A DNA stretch of 34,801 nucleotides from a virus. Positions within the stretch are counted from its first letter, which is position 1; each line of letters begins with the position of its first letter. Below the pieces are notes generated by a model. It saw only the letters and a program-made list of their open reading frames with translations, was not told the DNA's origin and searched no databases. The stretch spans positions 1-34,801 of IMG/VR virus record IMGVR_UViG_3300030109_002436; one strand, written 5' to 3'. Shown one piece after another: positions 1,198 through 32,300 of the stretch. A program made the translations under genes and the position numbers.

Positions 1198-2022
1198 TTA
1201 ATCGTCCCCCAATAATTTATTACCTAATAATACCTCATTCATAGAGTCTTTCAACTCATCTGGTATCGTATCAATAACAGTTTTAGTAGTTGACGCACGT
1301 TTTTTAACAGTATTCATACGTTGTATAGCTTCTTGTGGAACTAAAGACTTACCAGCAGGCCAGTCGTCAAGAAACTGTTTAAGTGTATTCTTTTTATCAA
1401 GACTTATTTTAAACGTTTCAGTTTCTTTAGCTATTCTGTCTTCTATTTCACCAATAGGCGAAAAAGCTTTACAAAGTTCAGGGTCAGATATAATTACAAC
1501 TGCATCCCCAGTACAATGTGGAGCGTATTGTTTTTCACCCCAACCTCGTTCATAAGATAAAGATAAAGACAATGGGTAATAATACTTAAGATCTTCTATT
1601 TTAACAGCTACATCATCTGGCAAGTAATTTGTTTGTTTTACTTCATCTGAATTGCTATATGCTTCTGTATAAGGAGCATCCCAACTTTTTAAAAAAGTAA
1701 GATTATTTTCTATTGGTCTATTAGGGTTACAAACTAAACCAATTTGTGTATTTGGTTTTAGCAAATTTTCTACTAATCTAGAATGATAATGTCCTATAGA
1801 CTGTATATTGTATGTTTTTGCTAAATCAGGTAATAACAATTGATATTGTTTTTCCATAGCTATTACATCTTGAAGATAATCAGAACTATTTTCTAAAGAA
1901 TAAATTACTTTGTCTAAAGATTCTTGTATGTTGTAAGACTTACGATAAGCTTTACCTAATTCTTTTGTAAAAGCATTTGTAATATCGTCTCTTAATCTTT
2001 GTGATAATTGTACACTAGCCAT
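1198..2022 (-). CDS. Paralogue A of a two-member family (Nmad5-like pattern)
   Basis: The product is 274 aa with a good ribosome binding site (GGAG, 7 nt spacing) before ATG 2022. Both ends match the 220-aa protein at 3964-4626. The N terminus has VQLSQRLRDDI against VRLSESLKYDI. The C-terminal third has a TL(K/N)Q segment, then LVPQEAIQRM against LVPQERLQKM, and both end in (N/D)KL(L/M)GDD. The centre differs and is longer here, with two cysteines near residues 98 and 170. The layout (helical start, variable beta-rich middle, 'TLKQFLDDWP...VPQ' near the end) reminds me of the phage Nmad5 family (nucleotide-modification-associated domain 5); this is recall without a search. It is the distal paralogue, after the membrane-protein genes. 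It overlaps the preceding gene by 8 bp. Function unknown; a partner or substrate of the MoxR/VWA module is an inference from context. Confidence 0.75.
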   Translation of the reverse strand: MASVQLSQRLRDDITNAFTKELGKAYRKSYNIQESLDKVIYSLENSSDYLQDVIAMEKQYQLLLPDLAKTYNIQSIGHYHSRLVENLLKPNTQIGLVCNPNRPIENNLTFLKSWDAPYTEAYSNSDEVKQTNYLPDDVAVKIEDLKYYYPLSLSLSYERGWGEKQYAPHCTGDAVVIISDPELCKAFSPIGEIEDRIAKETETFKISLDKKNTLKQFLDDWPAGKSLVPQEAIQRMNTVKKRASTTKTVIDTIPDELKDSMNEVLLGNKLLGDD

Positions 2023-2713: not shown

Positions 2714-2886
2714 AATAGTCTCCCTAATAAATATATAATTGAGCCTAAGCCAATGCCTACGCCCAGTAGAATTAATGAGTAATGCAAACTAGTTGCAATA
2801 CCAAATAGTAGAAAAAGAACACCAGTGCCTACCAACACTGATATTGCATAGTCTTTTGCTACATTAGATTTTGATGATTTCTCCAA
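2710..2886 (-). CDS. Small membrane protein, 58 aa, TTG start
   Basis: The frame is open further upstream, but the best start is TTG at 2886-2884, six bases after a perfect AGGAGG. It gives a protein beginning MEKSSKSNVAKDYAISVL. Two hydrophobic helices follow (about residues 15-33, VLVGTGVLFLLFGIA, and 36-55, LILLGVGIGLGSIIYLLG) with a very short turn, a hairpin topology. The first eight codons overlap the end of the metallopeptidase/VWA gene, and the stop overlaps the next start (ATGA), so translation is probably coupled through three genes. Such a short two-helix protein could be a holin-like or antiholin-like protein or a membrane anchor. No family recognised. Confidence 0.65.
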   Translation of the reverse strand: MEKSSKSNVAKDYAISVLVGTGVLFLLFGIATSLHYSLILLGVGIGLGSIIYLLGRLL

Positions 2887-3964
2887 AAGGGGCCTCCTCA
2901 GAATAATTAGTAATCCACAAGACTGGATATTGTGGCTTGTCGCCAAATTCATTTGCTTCTAAATCTGTAAGATAAATAACAGCTGCAGTATGTGGATACT
3001 TTTCGTTAATATATGTAAAAGCTGGCTCAAATGCTGTGCCACCTCTACCCTCAAATGTTACCTCAAGTGGTAACGATTCCCGACTGTATTCTTCATCTTT
3101 ATTGACTTCATAGTCACATTGAATGAGATGAATACGTTCTGGATTAAGTTCTCGAAGAATATAAGATATTTCTCCAAGGTCTTGATTTAGTTCTTTATCT
3201 GTTCTTGAACCAGATGTGTCGCACACAACACATATTTCTTCAAGACATGGGTTGTGCATAGATGGTAAATACAAACCGTTTGCAATCATGCGTCTGTTTG
3301 GCCTTTGCCATGTAAAGTCTGCTTTGTTATTAGCTCGTAAAAACCTTGCAAGCACTGCTTTCCAGTTAACTTTAGGTTCTACTACACCATTAACAAGAGT
3401 CTCTAAATTGCCTGAAAGCTTACCTTGAGCTTTGGCTTGTTCAGACGCTTGGTTAATTGCAACAGTAAGTTGAGTTTCTATGTTGTTAGCTTTACCTTGC
3501 GTACCGTCCATGTCAGGGTGATCAAGAACACCACCGCACTTGCCGGGATCTAGCAGACCGTTCTCTCCTGAGTTAGAATCAGGTAGGTCTGCATAGATTG
3601 TTTCCGACATCATGTTTTCATACTGTTCATCTATTAAACCACCGCGTGGAAGAATAAAACCTTCTTTAACAAGGTGGTTATTAATAGCATAATCAGCTGC
3701 AATATTCCAACGTTCTGGTTCACGTTCTTGTCTACGAGTGTGATGCATAAGAACTACATGCATTACTTCGTGTGCAAGAAAACCTACACGCTCTAATGGT
3801 GTTTGTTTTTCAAACCATTTAGGATTGTAAAACAAATGAACACCATCAGTAGCACCAGTAGGCATATCCTCCGTTTCAACAGGTTTTAAACGTAAACATA
3901 AAGTGCCAAAGAAAGGTTGGTCAAGGATAAGTGACGCCCTAGCTTTAGTAAAAAGTTCATTCAT
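2864..3964 (-). CDS. Metallopeptidase-like/VWA protein (DUF2201 type), MoxR partner
   Basis: The product is 366 aa, close to the usual size of DUF2201 proteins. The N-terminal half carries a zinc-metallopeptidase signature HEVMH (residues 65-69) followed by WNIAADYAINNHL, typical of the 'putative metallopeptidase' domain of this family. The C-terminal half (from about 245) is a VWA-like domain with an intact metal site: D249-x-S251-x-S253 (CDTSGS), a GGT near 308-310 and D334 in LTDLE. In known systems such proteins work with a MoxR AAA+ ATPase that loads or remodels them; here that ATPase is encoded at 4636-5646, with one small gene between. The start overlaps the previous stop (TAATG). All key residues are present, so an active enzyme is likely; the substrate is unknown. 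A role in virion maturation, host takeover or counter-defence is inference. Confidence 0.88.
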   Translation of the reverse strand: MNELFTKARASLILDQPFFGTLCLRLKPVETEDMPTGATDGVHLFYNPKWFEKQTPLERVGFLAHEVMHVVLMHHTRRQEREPERWNIAADYAINNHLVKEGFILPRGGLIDEQYENMMSETIYADLPDSNSGENGLLDPGKCGGVLDHPDMDGTQGKANNIETQLTVAINQASEQAKAQGKLSGNLETLVNGVVEPKVNWKAVLARFLRANNKADFTWQRPNRRMIANGLYLPSMHNPCLEEICVVCDTSGSRTDKELNQDLGEISYILRELNPERIHLIQCDYEVNKDEEYSRESLPLEVTFEGRGGTAFEPAFTYINEKYPHTAAVIYLTDLEANEFGDKPQYPVLWITNYSEEAPFGEIIKI

Positions 3965-4626
3965 TAATCATCTCCCATAAGTTTGTCTTCTAACAAAACT
4001 TCACGAAGATCCGCTAACTCATGTTCAGCAAGTTCTGCTTGTTCTTTAGCTCTTGCTTTCCTATCGTCTTTCTCATGCATTTTTTGTAGTCGTTCTTGTG
4101 GAACGAGGTCTTTAATGTATGGTGCGTTCTTAACTAACTGATTTAAGGTAGAAAATTTGTTAATAGCTGTAGCAAGCTTGTCAACATATTCTCTTTCTTG
4201 TTGTTCAAGTTTGTCGTTAAACATTCTTACAGACATGCATTCAACAAATGTTTCATCTTCACTTGGCACGTTAAGATAATAATCTCCGTATCTTGTTAAG
4301 AAACTAGGCACTTCTACATTAGCAAGAGGCAATCCGAATTGATGTTCGTCGGTTACTTCATAATCAGCACCGTCTTCATCTACACGAAACTCAGTCCAAT
4401 CACCTTTGATGGTTACAGTATCTGGCTGTTCTGTAGGTAAACTTCTGCCCCACAACTCACTAAAATATTTTTTAGTTTGTTCTAGTTTGTCAATAACACC
4501 GTAACGCACAAGAATAGAGTATCCGTCAGTTGGATACTCTTTCTTTGGGTTTGTTTTATTGAACTTTTTTCTAGCCTCTTTTCTGATGTCATATTTTAAT
4601 GACTCTGATAATCTAACAGTTTTCAT
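3964..4626 (-). CDS. Paralogue B of a two-member family (Nmad5-like pattern)
   Basis: The product is 220 aa and sits between the MoxR ATPase and the metallopeptidase/VWA gene. Its first residues (KTVRLSESLKYDIRKEARK) and its C-terminal segment (LVPQERLQKM ... VLLEDKLMGDD) align with the 274-aa protein at 1198-2022. The middle is acidic and beta-like (VTIKGDWTEFRVDEDGADYE) and unlike its paralogue. The C-terminal quarter is highly charged and helical, possibly coiled coil. Overlap of its stop with the start of the VWA gene suggests coupled production, as expected for a complex. As for paralogue A, the pattern recalls the phage Nmad5 family, without a search to confirm it. A substrate-recognition or adaptor role for the ATPase/VWA pair is inference. 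Confidence 0.78.
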   Translation of the reverse strand: MKTVRLSESLKYDIRKEARKKFNKTNPKKEYPTDGYSILVRYGVIDKLEQTKKYFSELWGRSLPTEQPDTVTIKGDWTEFRVDEDGADYEVTDEHQFGLPLANVEVPSFLTRYGDYYLNVPSEDETFVECMSVRMFNDKLEQQEREYVDKLATAINKFSTLNQLVKNAPYIKDLVPQERLQKMHEKDDRKARAKEQAELAEHELADLREVLLEDKLMGDD

Positions 4627-4635
4627 AGTTCGTCC

Positions 4636-5646
4636 TTATAGTATGACGTTTGCATTTTCTTTGAGCCATGCTTTAACGTCTGGGTGTTGTCTTAGGTCTT
4701 TTGATTTAGAGACACAGCCTCTAACCATGACCACCTGATACTCTGTTTGTATCTTTTTAGCCAATTTCATAATGTTTGGCATTTTAGATTCTTCTGCTCT
4801 AGATGCTACAGCAGTTGACAGAGCGTACAAGATAGCTGGGTCATCATCTCTCTTGTATTTTGATGGGTCAGCAAGTAACTCATCAACATTTGGTAGCTTG
4901 TCTGCAATTTGTTTGAATGCAACAAATTCGCCAGCTGGGCCGTCGCCAACCAATGAGGCTACGCCATAGAACAATCGTTCTGGGTCAGTGTTTTTAGTTA
5001 GTCGTTTACTAACTAATGACCACGCACGAGGCGTTGGAAAAGCGTTCTCATCTACACTAAAGTTATAGAGTAGATTTGACCTATAATTTAAGAACGCAAT
5101 AATATCAGTGTCGATATTATTTTTGTGAGCCCAATCAGTCCAATCTTTGAGAACAGGTTCTAGTTCGTAATGAGCTAGTCTGTTCTTTACGGGAGTAGAC
5201 ATCTGGTAAACAGCAGCACCGTCAGTGATTCTGTTACCAGCAGCGACTATTGCCCAGCCAGCTGGCAAAGTATAGTCAGCAATCTTACGATTAAGTAATA
5301 ATTGTAAGAAAGCATTTTGTGTAGCAGGTGGAGCAGTTGGCAATTCGTCGATAAGCAATATACCGCGGTCACCGTCTCTTTCTGCTATTGGAAACACATC
5401 AGGCACAGCCCAAGATGTGTATCTTTGTCCTGACTCTTTCTTAAGTAAGAAAGGTATACCGCGCACGTCGACTGGGTCGAACAAATTAGCACGGAAATCA
5501 AGAAGGTTCATATTTAATTCAGCAGCAACTTGTTGTGGTATTTCTGATTTACCAATACCTGGGCCACCCCAGATCATCGCTGGATAACCAGATATAATAC
5601 AATCTTTAAGTTCTGCTTTAAGCATATTTGGATTTATGGTTTGCAT
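4636..5646 (-). CDS. MoxR-type AAA+ ATPase
   Basis: The product is 336 aa with all core AAA+ features in order: Walker A GGPGIGKS (residues 27-34), Walker B ILLIDEL (96-102), sensor 1 AAGNR (N138) and a TPVKNR segment whose R156 may be the arginine finger. The C-terminal part is a helical lid domain. MoxR-type ATPases are chaperone-like machines that pair with VWA-domain proteins; the partner is encoded two genes downstream at 2864-3964. The start (ATG 5646) has AGGA at suitable distance. The gene leaves only 9 bp before the next gene, so they form one operon. The enzyme would act in the host cytoplasm early in infection, judging by its place outside the late operon. A DNA helicase role is less likely because no helicase motifs follow. 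Confidence 0.9.
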   Translation of the reverse strand: MQTINPNMLKAELKDCIISGYPAMIWGGPGIGKSEIPQQVAAELNMNLLDFRANLFDPVDVRGIPFLLKKESGQRYTSWAVPDVFPIAERDGDRGILLIDELPTAPPATQNAFLQLLLNRKIADYTLPAGWAIVAAGNRITDGAAVYQMSTPVKNRLAHYELEPVLKDWTDWAHKNNIDTDIIAFLNYRSNLLYNFSVDENAFPTPRAWSLVSKRLTKNTDPERLFYGVASLVGDGPAGEFVAFKQIADKLPNVDELLADPSKYKRDDDPAILYALSTAVASRAEESKMPNIMKLAKKIQTEYQVVMVRGCVSKSKDLRQHPDVKAWLKENANVIL

Positions 5647-6524: not shown

Positions 6525-6600
6525 CTATATGCCAGCGAATCACAGGTCAGACAGACCATGTGATCACAAGCTATATGTAGTAAACGACCTGTGTATTCGC
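6525..6600. ncRNA. Long bulged hairpin, copy 1 (structured element)
   Basis: On the plus strand, CTATATGCCA (6525-6534) is followed by GCGAAT (6535-6540) and CACAGGTC (6541-6548). These pair with GACCTGTG (6586-6593) and ATTCGC (6595-6600), giving 14 bp with a single bulged T at 6594. The loop of about 37 nt contains smaller inverted repeats (GGTC/GACC, TGTGATCACA). A second element with the same flank, same bulge position and different stem bases lies at 8403-8455. It sits 120-190 bp upstream of the start of the minus-strand operon, so it is either a leader RNA of that operon, a plus-strand small RNA, or a DNA hairpin recognised by a protein. Confidence 0.55.
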
Positions 6601-6606
6601 CTACGA

Positions 6607-6930
6607 TGGAACATCCTTGTTAGTCACCATTTGGTTCCACGTGGTTCCACTTGGTTCCATGAGTCGTGGAACACGATTAACAGCGTAAGAACGCGCGTTC
6701 TAGGACATGGTTCCATGGTTCCATATAATATTTAACTTCGAATAGATATTAAATAACTACGATCCACGGTCGACTGTAGCAAACTCGTGTTTGATTTACA
6801 TGGAACCGTGGAACCACGGGCATTGTTATTATCTGCAAACGCATACATTTAAAGGCGCGGGCATGGTTCCACTTGTTGGTTCCACATGGGGTTAGAGTCG
6901 TGGAACCAGTGGAACCCGGCGCGGGCATTG
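6607..6930. repeat. TGGTTCCA repeat array, candidate origin or operator
   Basis: Exact TGGTTCCA copies start at 6632, 6642, 6652, 6708, 6716, 6864 and 6877. Exact reverse copies (TGGAACCA) start at 6809 and 6901. Near copies with the first six or seven bases intact start at 6607, 6667, 6801 and 6910. The first three are spaced exactly 10 bp apart (one helical turn) and two more are back to back. CGGGCATTG or CGGGCATGG recurs at 6817, 6858 and 6922, beside three of the copies. Between the left and right groups is an AT-rich core (6721-6757) with TATTTAA (6729-6735) and TTAAATA (6749-6755) facing each other. This is the look of iterons next to an unwinding region, or of multiple operator sites controlling the flanking minus-strand operon. 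Frames that cross it are repeat-derived and not believable genes. Confidence 0.75.
6688..6701. repeat. Perfect 14-bp palindrome inside the repeat array
   Basis: AGAACGCGCGTTCT reads the same on both strands. It lies between two groups of TGGTTCCA copies and close to TCGTG-GAA-CACGA (6664-6676), another symmetrical site. Such sites are typical for dimeric regulators. Confidence 0.6.
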
Positions 6931-7031: not shown

Positions 7032-7307
7032 TTAGTTAACTAAGAGTTTAGTATTTTGAGAGTTGGTGAACAGACTGTCCGTCTCAATTTGGGTAGTGTA
7101 TTCTTCTAAAGCTATGGAACAAGCCTCGCAAAGAATAGAGTATTTATAAGCTAGAGCTTTAGCTTGTAGTCGCGACCTAGGGTCTTTTGAATTTGCGACG
7201 ATACTTGCGTATTTATCTAGCAGGTTGATGTAACCATCAAAGTCTTTATTGAGTTGTTCAAACTCTTCTAAAGAATCTGGGGTTGCAATAGAAATGTTAA
7301 ATGCCAT
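7032..7307 (-). CDS. Hypothetical helical protein, 91 aa
   Basis: The product begins MAFNISIATPDSLEEF and is mostly alpha-helical by composition, with two cysteines (LCEACSIAL) near residues 60-63. The start has GGGAG at a good distance, 2 bp after the stop of the preceding gene. No membrane segment or known motif is seen. It is the last gene of the small minus-strand operon and is followed directly by a terminator hairpin. The length and a conserved-looking 'SRLQAKALAYKYSILCEAC' segment suggest a real soluble protein; I do not recognise a family. Confidence 0.7.
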   Translation of the reverse strand: MAFNISIATPDSLEEFEQLNKDFDGYINLLDKYASIVANSKDPRSRLQAKALAYKYSILCEACSIALEEYTTQIETDSLFTNSQNTKLLVN

Positions 7308-7317
7308 TTTCTACTCC

Positions 7318-7443
7318 CTATATGATGATAAATGCTACAATTGCTAATAGGATTGCAATAGGTTTAAGCACATACCAGTTAAATTTCTCAAGCCCCTTCA
7401 TGTTGCCAAGAAAGGACTTGAATTCGTTGTAATAACTACGCAT
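7318..7443 (-). CDS. Tail-anchored membrane micro-protein, 41 aa
   Basis: A 42-codon frame runs from ATG 7443, which overlaps the stop of the preceding gene (TGATG), to TAG at 7318. The product starts MRSYYNEFKSFLGNMKG and ends in a strongly hydrophobic helix (residues about 23-41, WYVLKPIAILLAIVAFIII), so it would be anchored by its C terminus with the N terminus in the cytoplasm. No ribosome binding site of its own is obvious; translation probably depends on coupling to the upstream gene. Because that neighbour is a membrane protein with an SSB-like tail, the two may act together. Function unknown. Confidence 0.55.
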   Translation of the reverse strand: MRSYYNEFKSFLGNMKGLEKFNWYVLKPIAILLAIVAFIII

Positions 7444-7622
7444 CAGAATGGTATTTCGTCGTAGTCAAAATCTGAATTATCTTCGAAGTCAATCTTTTTA
7501 TCTTCTTTAGCGAAGTATTGATGTAAAAGATAACCATACATAAGCATCAAGCCGCCTTTGATAATCATAGACATTATGAAGTAAACAGAAACGATAATGA
7601 GTGTAATCTGAACTAAATCCAT
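7443..7622 (-). CDS. Membrane micro-protein ending in an SSB-like acidic tip, 59 aa
   Basis: The frame of 60 codons starts at ATG 7622 in a TAATG overlap with the preceding stop, with AAGGAG just upstream. Residues about 3-33 (VQITLIIVSVYFIMSMII then LMLMYGYLL) form one long or two short membrane helices. A short linker (FAKEDKKID) leads to an acidic tail ending DFDYDEIPF. The conserved tip of bacterial SSB is DFDDDIPF or close to it, and in SSB the final Pro-Phe is essential for binding many repair and replication proteins. Here both residues are exactly at the end. The protein has no OB fold, so it cannot bind single-stranded DNA as SSB does. I infer a membrane-held decoy or docking peptide for SSB partners. 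The gene itself is likely real because of its packing; the mimicry is a proposal. Confidence 0.7.
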   Translation of the reverse strand: MDLVQITLIIVSVYFIMSMIIKGGLMLMYGYLLHQYFAKEDKKIDFEDNSDFDYDEIPF

Positions 7623-7972
7623 TATTCATCTCCTTTTGGTTCTGTTAGGTCAACTGCAATTGGTGCAAATCCTAACTCTTTAGCCATTTTGTCAATTTCA
7701 GTTGCTGTGTAAACACAAACTTCGTTGTCAACATTAATGAACTCGATGATTGGCTCTGCTAGCTCGTCATCTACACCAAGGCGGTGTAATTGATTAGCCT
7801 CTGCAAATTCAGCTACATCTTGTTCTGTTACTTCGTTATGGTTAACAGGGAGGGCTCCTCTCTGTGTTTCCGTAAGACCTCTGCTAAATTCTTTAATAGA
7901 ATTACCAGTTAGTCTGCCGAAGAATCTACCGAATGAAGCAGTCAGTAGTCCTGCACGATAAGAGATATTCAT
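7622..7972 (-). CDS. Hypothetical protein, 116 aa
   Basis: The start chosen is ATG 7972 (product MNISYRAGLLTASFGRFFG) because GGAG lies seven bases upstream; an in-frame ATG 42 bp earlier lacks one. The N-terminal 35 residues are basic and amphipathic, and the rest is acidic (VTEQDVAEFAEANQLHRL and DDELAEPIIEFINVDNE). The C-terminal part could form a small alpha/beta domain. No family is recognised. A UUCG-type hairpin (7985-7996) lies directly before the ribosome binding site and might tune its translation. The stop overlaps the start of the SSB-tip membrane protein, so the two are probably made together. Confidence 0.7.
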   Translation of the reverse strand: MNISYRAGLLTASFGRFFGRLTGNSIKEFSRGLTETQRGALPVNHNEVTEQDVAEFAEANQLHRLGVDDELAEPIIEFINVDNEVCVYTATEIDKMAKELGFAPIAVDLTEPKGDE

Positions 7973-7984
7973 ATATCTACTCCT

Positions 7985-8055: not shown

Positions 8056-8343
8056 TTACGACTCTTCCTTTGGATTCCAAACAGAGAGTGTGCCAGTAAC
8101 TTCAGTGTCTCTGAAAACAATCTCTCCTTTTTTGTTTTTATAATGAGGTATTTGTTTCATCATTGCTTGCACAAGATAATCAAATCTAATCTCCATAAAA
8201 GGATTAGTTCCCTCTTTATTAGGTGTTTGTTCCCACCCCTTGCCAACAACTAAGTTCTGGCCATTAACAACATCTCCCTCATTATTAATAAATGAAGATG
8301 CTGATTGAGTAGTAACGATGTAAGGTTTCTTATTATTTGACAT
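8056..8343 (-). CDS. Hypothetical protein, 95 aa, first gene of the small minus-strand operon
   Basis: The frame is open to 8607, but the gene almost certainly starts at ATG 8343: GGAGT lies seven bases upstream, the product begins MSNNKKPYIVTTQSAS, and the region further upstream is a control region. The protein is soluble, with a glycine/asparagine-rich start (DVVNGQNLVVGKGWEQ), a helical middle (MEIRFDYLVQAMMKQI) and a beta-like C terminus (RDTEVTGTLSVWNPKEES). It is promoter-proximal and so probably among the first proteins made. I do not recognise a family; a small DNA-binding or host-takeover protein is possible but unproven. Confidence 0.7.
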   Translation of the reverse strand: MSNNKKPYIVTTQSASSFINNEGDVVNGQNLVVGKGWEQTPNKEGTNPFMEIRFDYLVQAMMKQIPHYKNKKGEIVFRDTEVTGTLSVWNPKEES

Positions 8344-8647: not shown

Positions 8648-9169
8648 ATGAGTATATTAAATCCGCAAGCCACTGAAGTTACTCAAGCTGATCGAGCGGA
8701 GTTACAGTCCCATTTTCCGTACGCCGGGGTTAAGTTATCTGAGCTTTCTGTACAAGAAGAAAGGTTAATTTTGTTCCACATAAGGGGTATGAGCAAAGCG
8801 GCCGCGGGTCGTGCTGCGGGGTACAAAGACATGGACACTGTGTACGCAGTTTTTAAACGAGACAAAGTTAGTCAAGCTTTAAATTACCTAAGACAAGAAA
8901 TGCGGGAAGAAGTAAAGTTCGACCGTAATACGGCAACCGTTATGTATTTAGAAGCGCACCGTAAATCAGCAAACTCTACAGAAGAAAAAAATGTTGTTGA
9001 TTCGTTATGCAAGCTCCACGGCCTATTTGCACCAGAACAAGTTACACAAGTTAACCTTAACGTAGAGAAACTAGAAAGGTTAGAAAGATTACCAGACTCT
9101 GAGCTATTAAAACTAGCAGGAGTAGATAATGAGTATTTAGAACCAAAAGGAGATAAGGATGTCGACTGA
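8648..9169 (+). CDS. terS: Terminase small subunit (DNA recognition)
   Basis: The product is 173 aa. An N-terminal helix-turn-helix (ILFHIRGMSKAAAGRAAGYK, residues about 40-59) is followed by a helical oligomerisation region. In it, ATVMYLEAHRKSANSTEEKN and CKLHGLFAPE resemble the segment shared by many phage small terminases ('EAH..A....E...V..LCKLHGL'). Small terminases bind the packaging site and stimulate the large subunit, which is encoded at 11191. The start ATG has no clear ribosome binding site (GTGTTACTTTTAGCAC upstream), which is unusual for this window. It is the first gene of the late plus-strand block, after the divergent control region. Confidence rests on motif pattern plus position. 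Confidence 0.78.
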   Translation: MSILNPQATEVTQADRAELQSHFPYAGVKLSELSVQEERLILFHIRGMSKAAAGRAAGYKDMDTVYAVFKRDKVSQALNYLRQEMREEVKFDRNTATVMYLEAHRKSANSTEEKNVVDSLCKLHGLFAPEQVTQVNLNVEKLERLERLPDSELLKLAGVDNEYLEPKGDKDVD

Positions 9170-20746: not shown

Positions 20747-23389
20747 ATGAGTAGAAGACAACAATATTTTAACGAATACTCTAGAGGTACAGAAAGCTAC
20801 TTAAACGCGCGGCTTTTAGGTAGCAGAGACTTCAACGTAACGTACATGAATAAACGGTTATTTGAAGCTATAGATACTGAAAATTTAGAAAAAGGGTCAG
20901 GAGAATTAATCAATCAACTTAATCCAGAAGAGTGGGAAAAGTGGACAGAATTAGGTGAGGTTGATAAAGATGGGGTACGACGTTTTAAAAACCAACAAGA
21001 AATATTAGATTATTTTTCTAGCCACGCTTTAATGGAAGGGTACTTCGATGAGGAAGCAGGTACAAACAAACAAGGGACTCTTGTTGATGTATTTGTAAAC
21101 GAAGATAACCAAGTAATGTTTACTTTGGAAACACGAGACGATAAAGGTTTTAAAAAGTTAGTGCCAAAAACTATGAGGGGTACAACTAAAGATGACCAAG
21201 TAGCTGCGTTTTCTCTTAAACCTACTGAAGACGGTAGAACTACTTTTTTTGATTTAGGGCAACTGGTAGCAACTGGCCATGGGAAAAGAGAAATAAAATT
21301 TGACCGACAAATAGGTGGATCTCTTGGGCTTTCTACACAAATAGTAGCCAGTACAAAGTATGGGCAACAAAGTCAAACGCCCCCATCGCAAGGAGGAACA
21401 GGTCTAGCCTCTGGTACTAACCTTGATACCCAACCGGGTACCACTGGAACTGGTGATACTACTGGAACTGGTGATAGTAGTCCTGCAGATGGCGGGACTG
21501 TTCAAGATGCTATTGTAGATTTAGAAGATAAAATAGTAAGTAATGAGGTTCCTGTACCTGAGGCAATATCAATATACGACGAAAAGATATTACCTGCAAT
21601 TAAAAACTATAACGCAAATATAGACAAAAAGATTGAAGATGCTAAACCAACTGCAGACATGCAAACAGTTGGTGGCGAAAACGCTAAAGCAATAGAGATT
21701 ATTAATTCTTTAGAATTAGACGCAAATGGAGTGCCTACAAAATTCTTAACAGGAAAAAGTGCGGATTACGAAGGCGATGCAGCAGTCCTTTTTGATTCAG
21801 TTAAAGACTACATTGTTGCAGCTCCTAATCTTCCTAGACATAGAGATAGGGTAAAGCAACCTTATAGTTTAGATAATATAGAAAGTAAAATGAGGGTGAA
21901 TAATAATAAATGGGCTAATGGAACACGTGCATTAGAAGAAATTGCAGAAATAGAAGCCATGGATATAAACGATATACCTGATAGAAACGATAATATGGCA
22001 CACACTAGTAAATACACAAAAAGCGGCGGTGAGATTTATATTAAAGATGGCCTAGATCCTGTAACTGGCAATAAAAGATACAAAAAACTATCTACTTATA
22101 AAGCAGAACAAGAAAGAAATGTTACTATGGGTAAAGCAGGACTTACAGCAAATATACAAGCAATACAAGGGGCTATGGGGGCTGAAAGACAAACAGAAAT
22201 AAACGTAGCAAAAAGAAACCTTGCTCCTAAACAACAAAGATTGGATAGTATAAACAATATTCTAGAAGACCCTGACCAAAGAATGCGACAAACACAATCA
22301 TCTTTAGAAAGTTTAGAAAAAGAAAAATCACAGTTAGTAAAAGAAATAATGGAAATAAATAACCAATATATCTCTCCAGACGAAGCTACAAGATTTAATA
22401 TTGATCAAAAAATACCAGAAGGTAAAGACGAGTTTCTGGAATGGGCTGCAAATGAAAATAATGAAGCTAAGTTAAAAGCTTTAGGTACTGATGAAGAAAC
22501 TGTAGACAAAGCTAAACAATATATAGAGAATAACAATATAGAAAACCCAGAAGGTGTAGCAGCTGGGCCAGTCTGGGATCCTCAAGTAAACATTAGTAGA
22601 ACAGCAGTAACAGCTGCTATTATGGCGTCTACTGGTATGACAGGCAACGATTACTTTAATAACTTCTATAAAATGAGTAACTTTCAAGCTACTGGAGACG
22701 ATACTATTTCTGGAGCTGATGTAGGTAAGTTTAACATTCAACAAGATATTAAAAGAAACGAATCTTTTAATAAATATCTTATAGACCAACAAAAAGCATG
22801 GGATAAAGAAGTAGATGGTTGGAATAAACAATATGATGCGCTTATAAAAAGTGCGTATACGACAGGATACGATAGAAAGCTGGCGGGTGATAAAATCACA
22901 ACAATTAAAGATTTTAGAGAGCAGCCCCAATTAAGAAAACAAATTAAACAATTAACTGATATTTTAGACCCATATATACAAAGAGCTACTAGAGCAGATG
23001 GTAGTATTGATTTTGACAGACTTCCAGCGCAAGTACTTACCAGTTATGAGAACGTAGCAAGCCTAATGCTTGATTCTGTTTTACAATACACTCCAAATGC
23101 TGATGGGTTTGTAGAAAGGTGGAGAGATAGGTTTAGAAATGATTTTTCAACTTATGGTGCTATGGAGCAAGCAGATCATATAGTAGCTGAAACTGAAGTA
23201 ATTAAAGGAAAACGTCGTTTAGTTGGTTTTAAACTAGTTCAAAATGGGAAAGAAACTAAAGCAGAAATACCAAGATCAGTATTTAATCAGGCTTTTGGGC
23301 CAGAAGGTTCTGCAATACGTCAGATTATTATTTCTATGTCAGCTAAAGATATGGCAATGCTAGCTGAAGAGCAAGAAGATGAGGGCTAA
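20747..23389 (+). CDS. Internal virion/ejection protein candidate 3, 880 aa
   Basis: The long protein starts MSRRQQYFNEYSRGTESYLN. Its N-terminal 230 residues may fold as an alpha/beta domain. A low-complexity linker follows (GTGLASGTNLDTQPGTTGTGD and on), coded in part by an 18-bp tandem repeat. The rest is almost all helical and charged, with coiled-coil-like parts (LAPKQQRLDSINNILEDPDQ; QSSLESLEKEKSQLVKEIME). Size and helical make-up fit T7 gp15-type core proteins that form a channel through the periplasm. Its stop overlaps the start of the 3017-aa gene, an arrangement matching gp15-gp16 in T7-like phages. No catalytic motif was found. Confidence 0.65.
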   Translation: MSRRQQYFNEYSRGTESYLNARLLGSRDFNVTYMNKRLFEAIDTENLEKGSGELINQLNPEEWEKWTELGEVDKDGVRRFKNQQEILDYFSSHALMEGYFDEEAGTNKQGTLVDVFVNEDNQVMFTLETRDDKGFKKLVPKTMRGTTKDDQVAAFSLKPTEDGRTTFFDLGQLVATGHGKREIKFDRQIGGSLGLSTQIVASTKYGQQSQTPPSQGGTGLASGTNLDTQPGTTGTGDTTGTGDSSPADGGTVQDAIVDLEDKIVSNEVPVPEAISIYDEKILPAIKNYNANIDKKIEDAKPTADMQTVGGENAKAIEIINSLELDANGVPTKFLTGKSADYEGDAAVLFDSVKDYIVAAPNLPRHRDRVKQPYSLDNIESKMRVNNNKWANGTRALEEIAEIEAMDINDIPDRNDNMAHTSKYTKSGGEIYIKDGLDPVTGNKRYKKLSTYKAEQERNVTMGKAGLTANIQAIQGAMGAERQTEINVAKRNLAPKQQRLDSINNILEDPDQRMRQTQSSLESLEKEKSQLVKEIMEINNQYISPDEATRFNIDQKIPEGKDEFLEWAANENNEAKLKALGTDEETVDKAKQYIENNNIENPEGVAAGPVWDPQVNISRTAVTAAIMASTGMTGNDYFNNFYKMSNFQATGDDTISGADVGKFNIQQDIKRNESFNKYLIDQQKAWDKEVDGWNKQYDALIKSAYTTGYDRKLAGDKITTIKDFREQPQLRKQIKQLTDILDPYIQRATRADGSIDFDRLPAQVLTSYENVASLMLDSVLQYTPNADGFVERWRDRFRNDFSTYGAMEQADHIVAETEVIKGKRRLVGFKLVQNGKETKAEIPRSVFNQAFGPEGSAIRQIIISMSAKDMAMLAEEQEDEG
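21443..21478 (+). repeat. 18-bp tandem repeat, two units
   Basis: ACTGGAACTGGTGATACT is followed directly by the same 18 bases with one change. It codes for a Gly/Thr/Asp linker inside the 880-aa protein and is likely to vary in copy number. Confidence 0.8.
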
Positions 23390-26300
23390 TGGCAACCGAG
23401 TACAACGAATTAGACCAGATAGGGACACGAAGGTCTGAAGCTGAACAGCGAAAACGTTTCGTTGAAAGTACACCTGAAGTTGACATAGTAGGGACACGAT
23501 CTACCTATAACCCCATTTTTGATACCTCTGATACCCCGGTAGTAGATAACCCTGTAGAAGCTTTTATGGCAGGTGTACAATCTGGCATAAAGAACGTATC
23601 TGCTCAAAATATAAACATGAACGCGGCTTTCAAAACGTTTATGGGCAAAGATGAAGAAGCTCAAGCTTTACTAGAAAAAGCAAATACTTTTGAATACGAA
23701 GCTTCTCTTCCACTAATGAATATGGAACAGTTTGATGAGTTCTTAGAAGAACCTACTTTTGTAGGTTTTATGAATCAAATGGCAGGTGCTACAGGACAAT
23801 TTATACCATCTGCTGTAGCAACGCTTGTAGAAGCTGGAGCAATTGCAGCTGCAGGTGTAGGTTTAACAGTAGCCACTGGAGGTACAGCTCCTGCTGCTTT
23901 AATAGGAACTGGTTCTGCAGGAGCAGCTGCTCTACGACAAGTACCAAAAGGAATAGCAAGAAGAGGAAGTCATAGTAAGACTAAAGACTATTTAAATAAT
24001 ATTATAAAAAAACAATATCAAAACTCTTTAGATGTTAAAGCTAAAAGAAGACCTACTAAACCTTTAATGCCACGTGAATTAGCAGATTTAGAAAACTACA
24101 TATATCCAGCACTTCGTGCAGAAAAGCTAGCTAGAAACGGGAAGAGGGGCGCTTTATTAGGCGCATTTGGACAAGAGTTCCGTCAAGGGTCTGGTATAGC
24201 TTTCTCTGACTACGCAGACCAAGACATGAAAGGTAGAGAAGAGGCTATGAAATCTTTTGCACAAGGTGGAGTTTTTGGTCTTATAGGGGTTGGGTCAGAG
24301 TATTTAGTAGCTAGTCAAGTTTTAAAAAGGTTTAAAAAAACACCATTAACTAGAAAAAATCTAAAAGACGACATTTTTAAGTACGACAAACCAAAAAGCC
24401 AAATGTTAAAAGATTTTGGTGGTATTGCAGGAGTTACTGCTTTTTCTGAAGGTATAGCTGAAGGTTTACAAGAAGAACTGTCTGTGCAACAAAAATTTAG
24501 CATAGACGACGCTTACACGAAAGCTAATGCTAATTTAGATAGAGCCCACGCGTATTTTGCTGGATTTTTTGGTGGGCTTGGTCTAGGTGGAGGTATTGGT
24601 GGTGTTACAGCTGTAACTAACAAAGCAAGACAATTTTTACACACCACAGCAGATAATGAGTTTGCACGACGTCAAGCAGAATCAAGAGCTAGGGTAGTTG
24701 CAAATGAAACGGGTGTAATACAAGAAGCAGCAGCTGCAATACAAGACCAATTTGGTTTTGCTTTTGATACTAAAAGCACAAAAGACTCTGTATGGGTAGA
24801 TTTAGGAACTAGAACTCAATTTGAAAAAGTACAAGAAATGCTTTTTAAAAAATATGGAGACAAAATAATTGCAGTGCCTTCTTTTGGTAGAGGGGCTTTA
24901 TTTACTACAAACCCTTTAAAAGCAGAACAATACCAAGCATTTTTAGATACAAATAGAGATGACGAAGCCATGCACGATGACTTGTTATCAAAAATTTTAG
25001 GGTACACAAAACCAAGAGATAACTCAGATGGATGGGTAGTTTATATAAGAGACACTCAAACAGGAAACCAAGTGTGGTACCAACAAACAGATGCAACGCC
25101 TGATGAAAGTAATACAACAGGTGTAATGGTAGCCAAAGATCAAGCCTATAAGATACTAGGAAAGGCTAACTTAGGACAAAAAGGAAGATACGTAGTAGAT
25201 GTTCAAACTAGAGAAGAACATATACAAGAAAGACTAGATGCAATTCCAGAGTCTGAAAGAGAAGTAGCTTTCTTTGACGAAGAAACTAAACAACCTAGTA
25301 CTAAAAAACAAAATATTGACGAAACTACAACAGAAGAAACTACACCAGAACCTACTCCAGACATACCCCCTAAAGTTATGGAGACAGCACGAAGAAGGGT
25401 AGGTAATAGAAAGAATGTTTCTAGGGATGTTAATGCTGAAGATGCTATGCGACCTATAATTAATAATTTTGGTACAGATGGAGCAATAGCTTTTATAAAT
25501 GCAGCTTATGACCAAGCAAACGAAAACGCAGAAGCTGATACAAAAATAACACCAGAAAGAAAACAAAGAATTATTGAAAGCAACGAAGCACAACGTCAAA
25601 AAGATATAAAAAACCTTGAAGACCAAAGACCTGATCCAAAAGATAGAAAAGCTTTTATGGATATGGACGATGGTTTAGATGGTACAAGTGAGACTACTGA
25701 AGAAGGAGAACAGAGTATAGATGTTGAAATTGAAGCTCTTATAGACGAACTAAAAGGAGCTACACCAGACAGTCTAAAGGGAATTAACCAACAACTTCAA
25801 CTATATGGTATGGATCTTACTTATCAACAAGTAAAAGCTGTTCAAAGTATATTAAATTCAATAGGTTCCTCAAGGGGTAAAGTATACAGAGAAACAGGCG
25901 AATTTGAGACAAAACAAGAAACAAAACGAAGAACAGATTACACAGATGCTCAATTAGAAGAAGGAAGAAGATTTTTACTTAAAAGAAAAATAATCCCGCC
26001 AAAAACAAGAGCAAATGAAGAAAACATTGCAAAATTAAATAAAGCCATAGCAGAACTTGCGCCTTTTGAAACTTTATCAGAAACAGAAAAAAACAAAATA
26101 GCTAAAGAACTTAGTGAAATACCGCCTTCTGAATTACCTCAAAGTCTTAACTTAGGACGAGAAGTAGTAAGTGAAAAACAAGTCCCAGTAAAAGAAGTAG
26201 TAGACCTAGGTAAAAAAACTATAAAAGATTTACCAAAAAAACAAAAACAAGCGCTTTTGGTTTTTATACAAGAATTAGATAAAGGCATATCTAGTTTAGA

Positions 26301-29300
26301 AGCTCAGATAGACACAAAACCACAAGACGCTGAAATTTTAGAAGCGTTAAAACTTGTACGTAGCGATTTACTTCAATATATAAACCCTTTTGTTAAATAC
26401 CTTGAAAGCGGGTTAGAAGAAGAGGTTTCTGCGTTAGGAGACAGTGTTATAGCTGAAGTAGAAAATATTACCCCTCTTACTAGTTCTGAAGCAGAACTTA
26501 CCCCTAAGTCTACCCCTCTTGATAAAGCTAATATAAAAGATGCTATAAAAGGGGAAAAGATTTTTAAAATAGATGACCCAGTGATAATGGAACGTGGTGG
26601 TAACGGTACTTTACAAAACCCTTTTACAGACCCATCTCAACTAAATGGGAAAAATACTACTATAGAAAATTCTGCTTTTTATATCAGAAAAGGTGACGAA
26701 AAAGCTAACGAAGGGTTAATTAGAGAAGCAAGAAGTTTAATACACATCAACTTTAGAAAAGAGTTTGATGCAGTTAGTGATAAATTTTCAACAAACTTGC
26801 TTAAAAGATTTATTGAAAAAACTAGAAAAGATAGAAAAACTATAATAAAACAAAAAGAAGATTTAGAAAGTTATCCAGAACTTTTAAACCAACAAAAACA
26901 AGTTGAACAAGATTTTAATAAGTTACGAAATGAAATTGATAACACAAAAGATTTAAAAGATACTGCAACACAAAATGCAGAACGTTATAAAGAATTAACA
27001 GAAAGAAAAGCAGATATTGCTCGTAAGCTAGAATTATCTTTGCAAGAAGCTGAAAACGTTACAGAGTTTTTACGTATTGTTCCTTTAGCTGAGTTAGGTA
27101 CATTGAGAAGGTCTGTTGATGTTGTGCAAGAGTTAGACATGCAAAGTGATGATAAGTTTGTATTAGTTATGCACGAAGTTGACAACGCACAGCCTCTTAT
27201 TAGACAAAGTAAAAACTCTATAACTAATATAGAAGAGTACATAAATGATATTGTAGCCTACGGGATTGATGCTGGAAAAAATAGGAACGAAAACAAACAA
27301 CTTAAATTTAGAATAAAAAGTGCTTACAACCACAAACGAAACTCAAAATCAAAAGGACAAGATGCTGACATAGGAGTTATGGCTAGTAGAATGGTCACAT
27401 TAATGAGGTATACGCAACGAAGAGACCAAACTATAGACAAAATAGGCGACAAGAGTTTCGAACAACTTAGAGCTTTAGGTTTTGTAGATTTAATTAACGC
27501 TCTTAATTCATATGGTCACGTTTTAGAATATTACCCAGAAGGTACAAAAAACATGAACACCATGAAAAATAAAAAAGATTTTGGGCCAGGAATAACTTTA
27601 ACTAATAATTTTATAGTAGGTAGTAATGCAAAAACAGTTAAAGCTATCTTAAGAGATCTTCAAAATTTGCAAACAAAACAAGACAAAGGAGCTAATACTG
27701 AAATAGAACAAGAACTAACAGACATGTTTGGTAAAAAAGCTATGTCTGTTGTATTAGGTGATAAACGTACAAAAGCTAGGTCAAAACTTAATCTAGAACC
27801 TAAAAATGAAAAAGCAACACCATCTGTTCCTATTACTTCTAATTTTGTATACGGTATGATTTTAGAAGACCCTACTTCTGGTATATATAAATTATCTGAT
27901 GGCACTGAACTAAGTTTTACTGCTATAAATAAAACTTTTCTCAAACAAGAACAAAGTGTAAATATTTTAAATACGTCACAAAAACTACTTTACATTAAAA
28001 GAATTGATTTATATAAAGAGAAAGTAAGTCTTCAAGACGCTACTGAAGCAAATGCTAAAAGGCTTGGTTTTGATAGCCTAGAGGAGTTTATAGAAGCTAC
28101 AGAAGGTTACGTAGGAGATGTAAATCTTGAAACTATTTCTAATAAAATGGATAAATTAGTAGAGTTTGGTTATGTTGGTTTTTTGCCTGATGGTTCTTAT
28201 GATCCAGAAACAAAAGTAGAAGAAGCGTCTGTAAATAGAGAGTCTGATTTAGGTTCAGGTAGTCAAGTTAGACGTATCCCAACTGTGTTAGTAAGAGAGG
28301 AACTAAGCAAAGCTTATAAAACAATAATAAGAACACTAGAAGATGGTACTCAAGAAGTATTAAACCCTGCGTTAGCAAAAAAATATCTTAAAAAAATTAA
28401 AAGAAAAGACGGAAAAGAAGAGTATGCTTGGAAAGGTAAAGATGTACAACAAGGCTTGCCGTACAAAGGGCGTACTTATAGAGACCGATTTTTTGTGCCA
28501 ATTAGTTTTCTTAGTTATTGGAAAAATGAAGTAAAGGGCAACAAAAACATAAAAGAAAACAGGTCGTTTATACAATATGTACAACAAACAATTGATGGCG
28601 TTGCGTTTCCTCTAATGCAACTGTCCGCATTGATGGACATAGCAGCTAAGTATGCCCAACAAACAGACCAAGACCCAATAATTATAAATGAACCTATAAA
28701 TGTATGGTTAGAAGACGTTGTAGGGGTTCAAGACGCTTTAAAAGATCCAGATATATCTGATCAAGGTAAAGCCTACGCAGAAAACTTAGATACTTTAATA
28801 GCTGGGGTAGGAGACAAAGCAGCACAAAATTTTGAAAAAGCTAGAGGAGAAGCTGACTTGTTTAGTCAAATGGCAGAACAAGAAGAGATAAGGTTTAGAG
28901 GAAGGGGTGGTAGATATTCCCCGGATCTAGCTAAACCTATTCTTAAAGATGCAAAAGGAAAACCTATTTTAGATAAAGATGGTAATGAGCAGCTTTTAGA
29001 AGAAGCCCAAAGAAAACAACTACTAAAAGAGTTTGTAAATTACGAAATAGACGAAACTTTAGAACAACAAGAAATTGAAGATAGTTTTTTTGGGGTTCCT
29101 AGTGACATGACTGTTGAAGACGCAAAAAAATTGGTTTTTGAACCTCTTCAAATGGAACAAGCTAAAGGCGGAAAAATCGACTCTACATATATAATTGCAA
29201 AAAGAAAATTTGTACCGCCTCGTAAGTTAGAAATGCCTAAAAAAACAATACCTAAAAACCCTAAACCTAAAACTATAATAGCTCCTAAAATGGAACAAGA

Positions 29301-32300
29301 GTTAAATAATATAGAAGACTCTTCTTTACCAGATAACCTACTATATTCTTCTGACGCTTTTTCTGGTGTTTATGAACCCGGGGGTCAACAAATACAAACT
29401 GAACCTGAGCCACAAGAAGAAAGTACTTTTGAAGGGTTACCAGACGCTGAAACAATGGCTGAAATGACTACAGAAGAACAACAAGCTATTTTTGAAGAAG
29501 GGTACGAAGATTATCAAATGTCTCAAGAACAAGAACAAAAACAGCCTAAAAAACAAACAGAAGCAAGAAAAAGAGTAGAAGCTAAAAAGAAAGCTAAAAA
29601 ACAACAAACTCAAAATAAAGCAGCTAACGCACTAAAACAAAGGCAAGCTAGAATATTACAACAAAGAAAAGCAAACAAAGCTAAGTTAGAAACTGCTAAT
29701 AAAACTAGAATTACTATTACAGAAAGGATACTCCAAGCTGCAAGAAGGTTAGGTTTGCAAAGAGATGTACAAATAATACATATAGATGAACAAATAGGCA
29801 GAGAAGCAGACGGTAACTTTAGTCTTGGTTCTGGTGGGGCAAACGCTAAATTACAAAATGCTATCGATGATTTAAAAGCTAGAATAGATAGAGGGGAGAA
29901 AAAATTTGGAAGAAACGTACGATTTAAAAATGGAGATGTAATTATAATAGCGCCTAACGCTACAGTTATAGGTAAAGCAAAAGGATATTACACAACTTTA
30001 ATGCATGAAATAGGAGAGTCTTTTGTTAACCAAGAAATAGATAGAAGTTTAAAAAACCCAAGAATACGAAAAAAACTGTTAGAAGCTTTTAATAAAGTAA
30101 AAAATAAAACCCCTGCTTATCAAAAAGAAAATGGTTTCTACGAATGGGTAGCTGATAATTTTGGTTCTGCAATTAGAAAAGAATTAGGTATTACAAAAGA
30201 TTTATACTCTGAAACGTTAGAAAAAATGAACAAACCTGCACAAGGTTGGTTTACAAGGTTAGCAAAACAATTAGTAGGGTTTTATAACGCATTGCCAGAT
30301 GCTTTAAAAATAAGAATGGAAGCTAACGAAACTGCGCAAGAGTATATAGATAACATAGCAAAAGGTATAAGATTTCCTATTTCTAATGCTAAATTGTCTT
30401 ATGAAACAAAAGCTAAAATAGAAGAAGAACTAGACTTCCTCATGGGGCCAGAAACTTATAGTGAAAAAGAATTAAGAAAAATAGTATTAAAAGCACAAAA
30501 ATTATTACGTAGCGATAAATTACCAAATTGGTTACAAAAAATATTTTTTACAGGTGATAGTAGGTTAAGAAATTTAGGGCCTATAGGTGAAGCGATTGCA
30601 AACTTTTACTATAGCCAATCTAGAACTAAGACTAAAACAGGACTCCTACTTGCTAAACAAGCTAAAGCTCAACAGTATATAAGTAAAGTAGCTGATATTT
30701 TAGAAGTAACAGATAACTTTAATGTGCTCCAAGCTAATTTTTATTCAACCTTAACTGATGAGCAAAACGCTATATTACAAGCTGCAGAAAGTGATATAGC
30801 AACTGCAGACTTACAAAACCCTAAAGCAGTTGAGTTAAGAAACCTATTAAAAGAAATGTACGAAGACTTAGGTTTAAAAGAATTAGGAGTAAAAGAACGT
30901 GCTAATTTCTTCCCTCGTATTATTGCAATATACGAATTAGCTGGTAATGAACAAGTAAGAACAGATTTAATTAATTTATTAGCTGAAAAAAACCCTAAAG
31001 TAACTAGAGCAGAAATAGTAAATGCGGTAGATAACCTTGTTAAAAAAGGACAGGGGCAAATAGATTTTGAAGCAAAAACAAACGATCCTTTAGAAATAGG
31101 AGTGTTGTTTAAATATAAACCTTTATTTGAAAATGTAACAAGGACTGAGCTTAGAAACATAAATGCTATAGAAGCACCAGAAGTTGCTCTTAAAAAATAT
31201 ATAGACAAAGCTGTTATGAGGCACGAGTTTGAAAAACGTGGCGGTGTTGAATACTTGCGTAATTTAATGGATAAACTTACTCCAGAGCAACAAGAAATTG
31301 CACAAGAAATACAAGACGGTATTATGGGCAGAGTTACTCCTATACAAAACGGAATGCTTAGGTGGGCTAATAATGTAGGGTTGGTTTTAAATATAATAAC
31401 TTTATTAGCATTTACTGTACTTGCCTCTTTACCAGATTTAGCAGGGCCAGTTTTAAGATCTAGAAGCGCAGATGTACGTCCTATATTTGACACGATTAAA
31501 TATATGATAAAAAATCCACAAGAAGCTAGAGAATTATCTAAAGAAATAGGAGTAATAGGAGTAGACGCCATGTCTACTTTCTTTATTAATGCTGGAGAAG
31601 TTGATTTCTTAAACCAAACAGGACAAAAAGTTTCTAATACTTTCTTTAGAGTTACAGGCTTAGAAGCCTTTACTAGGTTTACAAGAGTGTTTGCTACAGG
31701 TATGGGTAAACAGTTTATGATAAATCATGCTAAAAAAGCTAAAGCTGGAGACCTAACTTCTCAAAGTTACTTAGAAGAGCTACAAGTAACAGCAGACGAA
31801 GTACTTTTATGGTCACAGGGTAAAGCAAGTCCAGAAATTAGAGCTAAAGTAAACGAAGGATTAGCAAGGTTTGTAGATGAGTCTATCGTGCGTCCAAACT
31901 CTGCAGAGAGACCTACATGGGCGAATGATCCTAGATACGCTTTAATTTGGCAATTAAAATCTTTCTACTATGCTTACGGTAAAAATATAGTAGGAGGAGC
32001 TATGCGTGATGCAAAAGGTAATGCTAAAAATGGTGGTATTAGTGCGGCCGCTATGCCTTTAGTGTTTATGGCGTTAATGTTATTACCTTTAACTATTTTA
32101 GGTTGGGAAATTAGAGAATTTACAAAAGCAGGTTTAGCGTGGTTTTTACCTGGTGTATCTCCAAACGACCCGGGAGTAGACTATTATAGAACCGACAGTA
32201 TGACTAACGGGCAATACTATACAGAACTTATTGATAGGACAGGTATGCTAGGGCCAGGTTCTATGGCGCTTCCCATGTTTTTAGAAAGTCATAGACATGG

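Follow-up and report, generated by a model that had tools for sequence, protein, structure and literature searches.

The window, the whole 34,801-nucleotide (34.8 kb) IMG/VR viral record that was analysed, contains on its minus strand a gene coding for a 59-aa membrane microprotein, MDLVQITLIIVSVYFIMSMIIKGGLMLMYGYLLHQYFAKEDKKIDFEDNSDFDYDEIPF, the free C-terminus of which, DFDYDEIPF, forms an SSB-like docking tip. The docking-tip peptide itself is already known; its membrane microprotein carrier is new. From its distribution among related phages, the tip appears to be an optional lure for DNA-repair proteins of the host and not the core function of the family to which the microprotein belongs.

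The terminase, portal and major head genes of the record lie in a plus-strand run, and the gene for the terminase small subunit (terS) is flanked by a divergent minus-strand block of small genes, beyond which is located the gene for a MoxR-type ATPase (Table 1). The initial annotation had drawn attention to a frame with a long hydrophobic segment that ends in DFDYDEIPF, and this frame was confirmed as a real gene, a member of the operon of small genes between terS and the MoxR-type ATPase gene, on the grounds of a good ribosome-binding site and of homologues that share its start, its reading frame and the order of the surrounding genes. The stop codon of the preceding 117-aa gene overlaps its ATG (TAATG) and its own stop codon overlaps the ATG of the ensuing 41-aa gene (TGATG), an arrangement which, together with the AAGGAG site, places it within a small-gene cluster and argues against a chance frame. 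Between this operon and the MoxR block, positions 6600-6930 are apparently non-coding and rich in GGTTCCA/TGGAACC repeats, and motifs resembling these can be seen at related loci.

Table 1. Features of the window discussed in the text (coordinates are those of the window).
Feature	Coordinates	Strand	Basis or remark
MoxR-type ATPase (phrog_1297)	4636..5646	-	Syntenic anchor on the opposite side of the microprotein gene
91-aa soluble protein	7032..7307	-	Next operon gene after the 41-aa gene
41-aa C-tail-anchored membrane protein	7318..7443	-	Window subclade only
59-aa single-helix membrane microprotein gene	7443..7622 (stop codon included)	-	ORF; 24 distinct homologues in addition; helix predicted over residues 3-41
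SSB-like C-terminal tip DFDYDEIPF (codons 51-59)	7446..7472	-	DYDE[IV]PF kept in L002 and L087
Microprotein codon 22	7557-7559	-	Lys or Arg in 22/22 aligned members
Membrane-spanning part of the microprotein helix (codons 3-21)	7560..7616	-	Hydrophobicity
117-aa protein upstream of the microprotein	7622..7975	-	Alternative start: ORF to 8014
AAGGAG ribosome-binding site, 7 nt 5' of the microprotein ATG	7630..7635	-	
95-aa all-beta protein, first gene in the small-gene operon	8056..8343	-	Without family or fold match
Terminase small subunit (terS), divergent	8648..9169	+	Syntenic anchor for family sampling

Structure prediction with AlphaFold2 returned a single helix spanning residues 3-41 (32 residues with a pLDDT of 90 or more) followed by a disordered tail. 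The protein possesses a single long helix of hydrophobic character with charge at its boundary, and the invariant Lys or Arg at position 22 is predicted to mark the membrane edge. As no positive residue precedes position 22, the positive-inside rule suggests that the N-terminus lies outside and that the C-terminus, and with it the tip, is probably cytoplasmic. No Pfam match was obtained for the microprotein, including the OB-fold SSB domain PF00436, and sequence matches in PADLOC, Pfam, PHROG and the PDB were all at chance level; the PADLOC and PHROG models thus gave no significant link to a known defence or anti-defence family. Neither a phage SSB-tip mimic nor a layout combining a membrane helix with an SSB tip was found described in the open-access literature searched, in keeping with the initial annotation, to which no described family of this kind was known.

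The family was sampled by means of two neighbours that are independent of the tip, the MoxR and terS genes (80 loci each), and its members were gathered both by profile and by place; since later automatic HMM iterations drifted to minus-strand frames, only matches in the expected position and orientation were retained. The resultant 24 distinct sequences plus one from a MAG contig (L195), a total of 25, constitute a fast-evolving, undescribed family in marine podovirus-like phages. Relatives of either the microprotein or the DNA region were absent from the isolated-phage records, and homologue searches started from single members or from the 41-aa gene yielded few further sequences. The first homologues recovered already differed at their ends: L002, 62% identical to the window protein, keeps DYDEIPF, and L003/L004 keep the helix but terminate in FPFGRDEPRTDS.

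Taken over the whole family, a terminal acidic-[I/V/L/F]PF ending is present in 5/25 distinct members, namely the window, L002 and L087 (DYDE[IV]PF), L064, which is identical to L066 (DIDDLPF), and L037, which is identical to L038 (EQEDFPF). A further five members (L003(/L004), L027, L032, L035 and L091) carry FPFG followed by 2-9 additional residues, N[DE] in the last four and RDEPRTDS in L003/L004, and the remaining 15 of the 25 have no PF-type motif, many of them ending NPNL[DN][FTYN]. Homologues that keep the membrane part and lack a terminal Pro-Phe, the finding that the initial annotation had named as counting against its reading, make up most of the family (20 of the 25 members are devoid of a terminal PF); a family-wide function of the tip is accordingly not supported, and the tip is better regarded as a lineage-specific add-on of the family. 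The search for homologues in related phages that the initial annotation had proposed did, by contrast, reveal related acidic PF tips at three places on the terS tree: the window clade, L066 alone on its branch, and L037 nested among NPNLDF forms, its extreme C-terminus differing in length, in frame, from that of the near-identical L119. The conserved columns are located in the helix (Y14, Y31 and K/R22), and the tails vary by lineage. Differing membrane helices with a common SSDQFN-type tail were also recorded at L026 990-1151 (+), L036 1099-1254 (+) and L009 1548-1718 (+), which suggests that helices and tails may be exchanged in modular fashion within the microprotein gene.

Within the window subclade, the comparison of tip and linker suggested by the initial annotation showed the tip to be the more conserved at the peptide level: 7/7 and 6/7 tip residues are identical between the window and L002 or L087, respectively, and the linker has 7/12 and 4/14 identities (the helix part 21/37 for L087). 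The tip codons are likewise the same (6/7 and 6/6), however, and this identity continues without interruption into the beginning of the overlapping 41-aa gene, which is itself conserved (20/25 and 21/24 codons). Part of this conservation may consequently have no bearing on the peptide, and it constitutes weak evidence; recurrence of the tip in other lineages, mostly with different codons, is the stronger argument.

That recurrence gains in weight from the rarity of such endings elsewhere. Of 2,005 distinct non-overlapping ORF tails, drawn from loci not chosen for the tip, only seven end in PF, five of them from the microprotein family and two from outside it, and in a set of mostly spurious overlapping frames a PF end was recorded in 1/2,720 tails and an acidic one in none. 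The tip is therefore commoner in the microprotein family than in unrelated ORFs (5/24 distinct sequences versus 2/~2,000). When 2.9 million viral contigs were scanned, DYDE[I/V/M]PF-stop was encountered in 20 stretches, including the family members L086 and L180. Recognisable owners outside the family comprised an Erf/Rad52 annealing protein, a primase, two SSB-like proteins and a gp2.5-like ssDNA-binding protein, and owners of unassigned role fell into five kinds, one being a small phrog_1811 protein. It was apparent that DYDE[IV]PF-stop occurs on proteins working on ssDNA more often than on any other recognisable class. The three tree positions, the rarity of the ending elsewhere and the ssDNA-protein owners of DYDE[IV]PF-stop together support its identity as a genuine SSB-type tip.

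The C-terminal tip of E. coli SSB (SSB-Ct) is DFDDDIPF. The microprotein matches bacterial SSB-Ct in presenting acidic residues and then I-P-F at a free C-terminus, in closing a disordered stretch, and, as the initial annotation had noted, in placing Pro-Phe directly before the stop codon, the pattern documented for SSB (PMC10164576). Unlike bacterial SSB, however, it has neither an OB fold nor a DNA-binding domain, and its tip is borne on a membrane helix of ~40 residues. Individual members of the gp2.5-like phrog_112, the SSB-like phrog_18154, the Erf/Rad52-type phrog_1097 and the primase phrog_21866 share DYDE[IVM]PF-stop, but these are soluble, DNA-handling proteins and not membrane microproteins. 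Closer in setting is pA_gene0001 (UIS74216.1) of Aeromonas phage phiA008 (OL774570.1; L006 174-311 (+)), the sequenced phage with the most similar terminase (51% identity) and the source of one of the two non-family PF tails: this 45-aa protein ends RDDDSIPF and is encoded by the first gene divergent from terS, a place matching that of the window operon, although its body is non-homologous to the microprotein and a membrane helix is not clearly present. Other phages yielded no convincing relative of it. The small phrog_1811 proteins of L183 (4005-4223 (+)) and L185 similarly end FDYDEIPF, on a tail that extends beyond the family profile, but are unrelated in sequence and lack a hydrophobic helix.

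On the preferred reading, the small-gene operon heading the replication-side (minus-strand) genes would yield a single-pass membrane microprotein, the disordered acidic tail of which would present a free SSB-type tip, DFDYDEIPF-COOH, in the cytoplasm. The tip might then occupy the SSB-tip pocket of such host proteins as RecO, ExoI, PriA, RecG or pol III chi, which would be held at the membrane and away from phage ssDNA. That the cytoplasmic tail captures, at the membrane, those host repair proteins that bind SSB tips is considered plausible, albeit at somewhat less than even probability. Being recurrent but optional, the tip is read as a host-directed accessory gained or lost with the host and not as a core replication component; its gain and loss among relatives is easier to reconcile with such an accessory than with a constant component of the replisome. 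A wider proposal, advanced more tentatively, is that phages repeatedly append a true SSB-Ct to unrelated microproteins, thereby giving rise to a group of decoys that would use the SSB tip to draw host nucleases and repair proteins off phage ssDNA, the present example being membrane-anchored; proposed instances are the membrane family at its three tree positions, phiA008 gene0001 and possibly the phrog_1811 members.

The PF-less majority of the family, its conserved helix columns, the differences in tail between lineages and the presence of other small membrane proteins among the neighbouring genes would be anticipated were the membrane helix the functional part, serving in membrane perturbation, antiholin-like control or superinfection exclusion, with a drifting tail and an incidental SSB-like ending. 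This explanation is nonetheless thought rather unlikely, given that drift would hardly produce an acidic PF end at three tree positions when only 2/~2,000 tails elsewhere possess one. A somewhat different possibility, that acidic-hydrophobic-P-F is a short docking motif for another partner and has no need of a free C-terminus, draws on the sister clade (L003, L027, L032, L035 and L091), which keeps the acidic stretch and then an internal F-P-F-G, so that the PF motif may predate its terminal position. The SSB-tip pocket accommodates the terminal Phe side chain, its basic lip the alpha-carboxyl group, and removal of the Phe abolishes binding (PMC10164576); tails that continue beyond FPFG would be expected to lack the alpha-carboxyl contact on which tip pockets depend, and FPFGND should not bind this pocket in the same way, a point against the preferred reading. 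In two further lineages (L064/L066 and L037/L038) Phe is the very last residue, and elsewhere the identical ending is a mark of ssDNA proteins; a motif independent of the free C-terminus is accordingly regarded as quite improbable.

It could also be envisaged that the tip brings host or phage replication and repair proteins to the membrane so as to establish a site of phage replication, with no titration involved. The gene heads the strand that in the nearly full-length relative G002 (L032) bears the DNA polymerase, primase and helicase genes, and phage replication proteins make use of the same tip; G002, however, has these replication genes and no terminal tip, which indicates that replication in this phage group is independent of it, and the proposal is accordingly deemed improbable. 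In this relative, the gene for a CsrA-like regulator (L170 2866-3051 (-)) lies between those for DNA polymerase and primase. The phage's own SSB was considered as a tip carrier but is not put forward, no Pfam SSB having been found in the contigs of 12 relatives. Nor is any claim made for the 95-aa beta protein of the operon as a split SSB, its model having a pLDDT of 68 and no usable fold match. An SSB recovered from a MAG containing a relative phage contig was set aside as a guide to the host SSB tip, since its neighbouring genes look phage-like and it therefore says nothing about the host.

The tip of E. coli SSB acts as a hub directing at least 17 proteins to ssDNA (PMC7145534), and inhibitors of SSB-Ct are sought as antibacterials (PMC10143822). 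If a phage does display this peptide from the membrane, a single gene would give it a way to disarm or relocate many of these proteins, and the microprotein would provide a natural model for SSB-Ct inhibitors.

Several other features of the window were recorded. Two phrog_1965-kind proteins (3964-4626 (-) and 1198-2022 (-)) end LLEDKLMGDD and LLGNKLLGDD, respectively. Their conserved L-[LM]-G-D-D C-terminus recurs in L003 and L170 and resembles a further docking motif of the C-terminal type, its partner being perhaps the MoxR ATPase of a neighbouring gene. The protein at 2864-3964 (-) bears the PHROG label HNH endonuclease (phrog_1314), but in its L003 homologue, near a MoxR ATPase, GFLAHEVMHMVLMHH forms a metalloprotease-like HExxH motif. 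In the virion region, positions 23389-32442 (+) encode a 3,017-aa protein with no Pfam match, the G002 counterpart of which comprises 2,605 aa.
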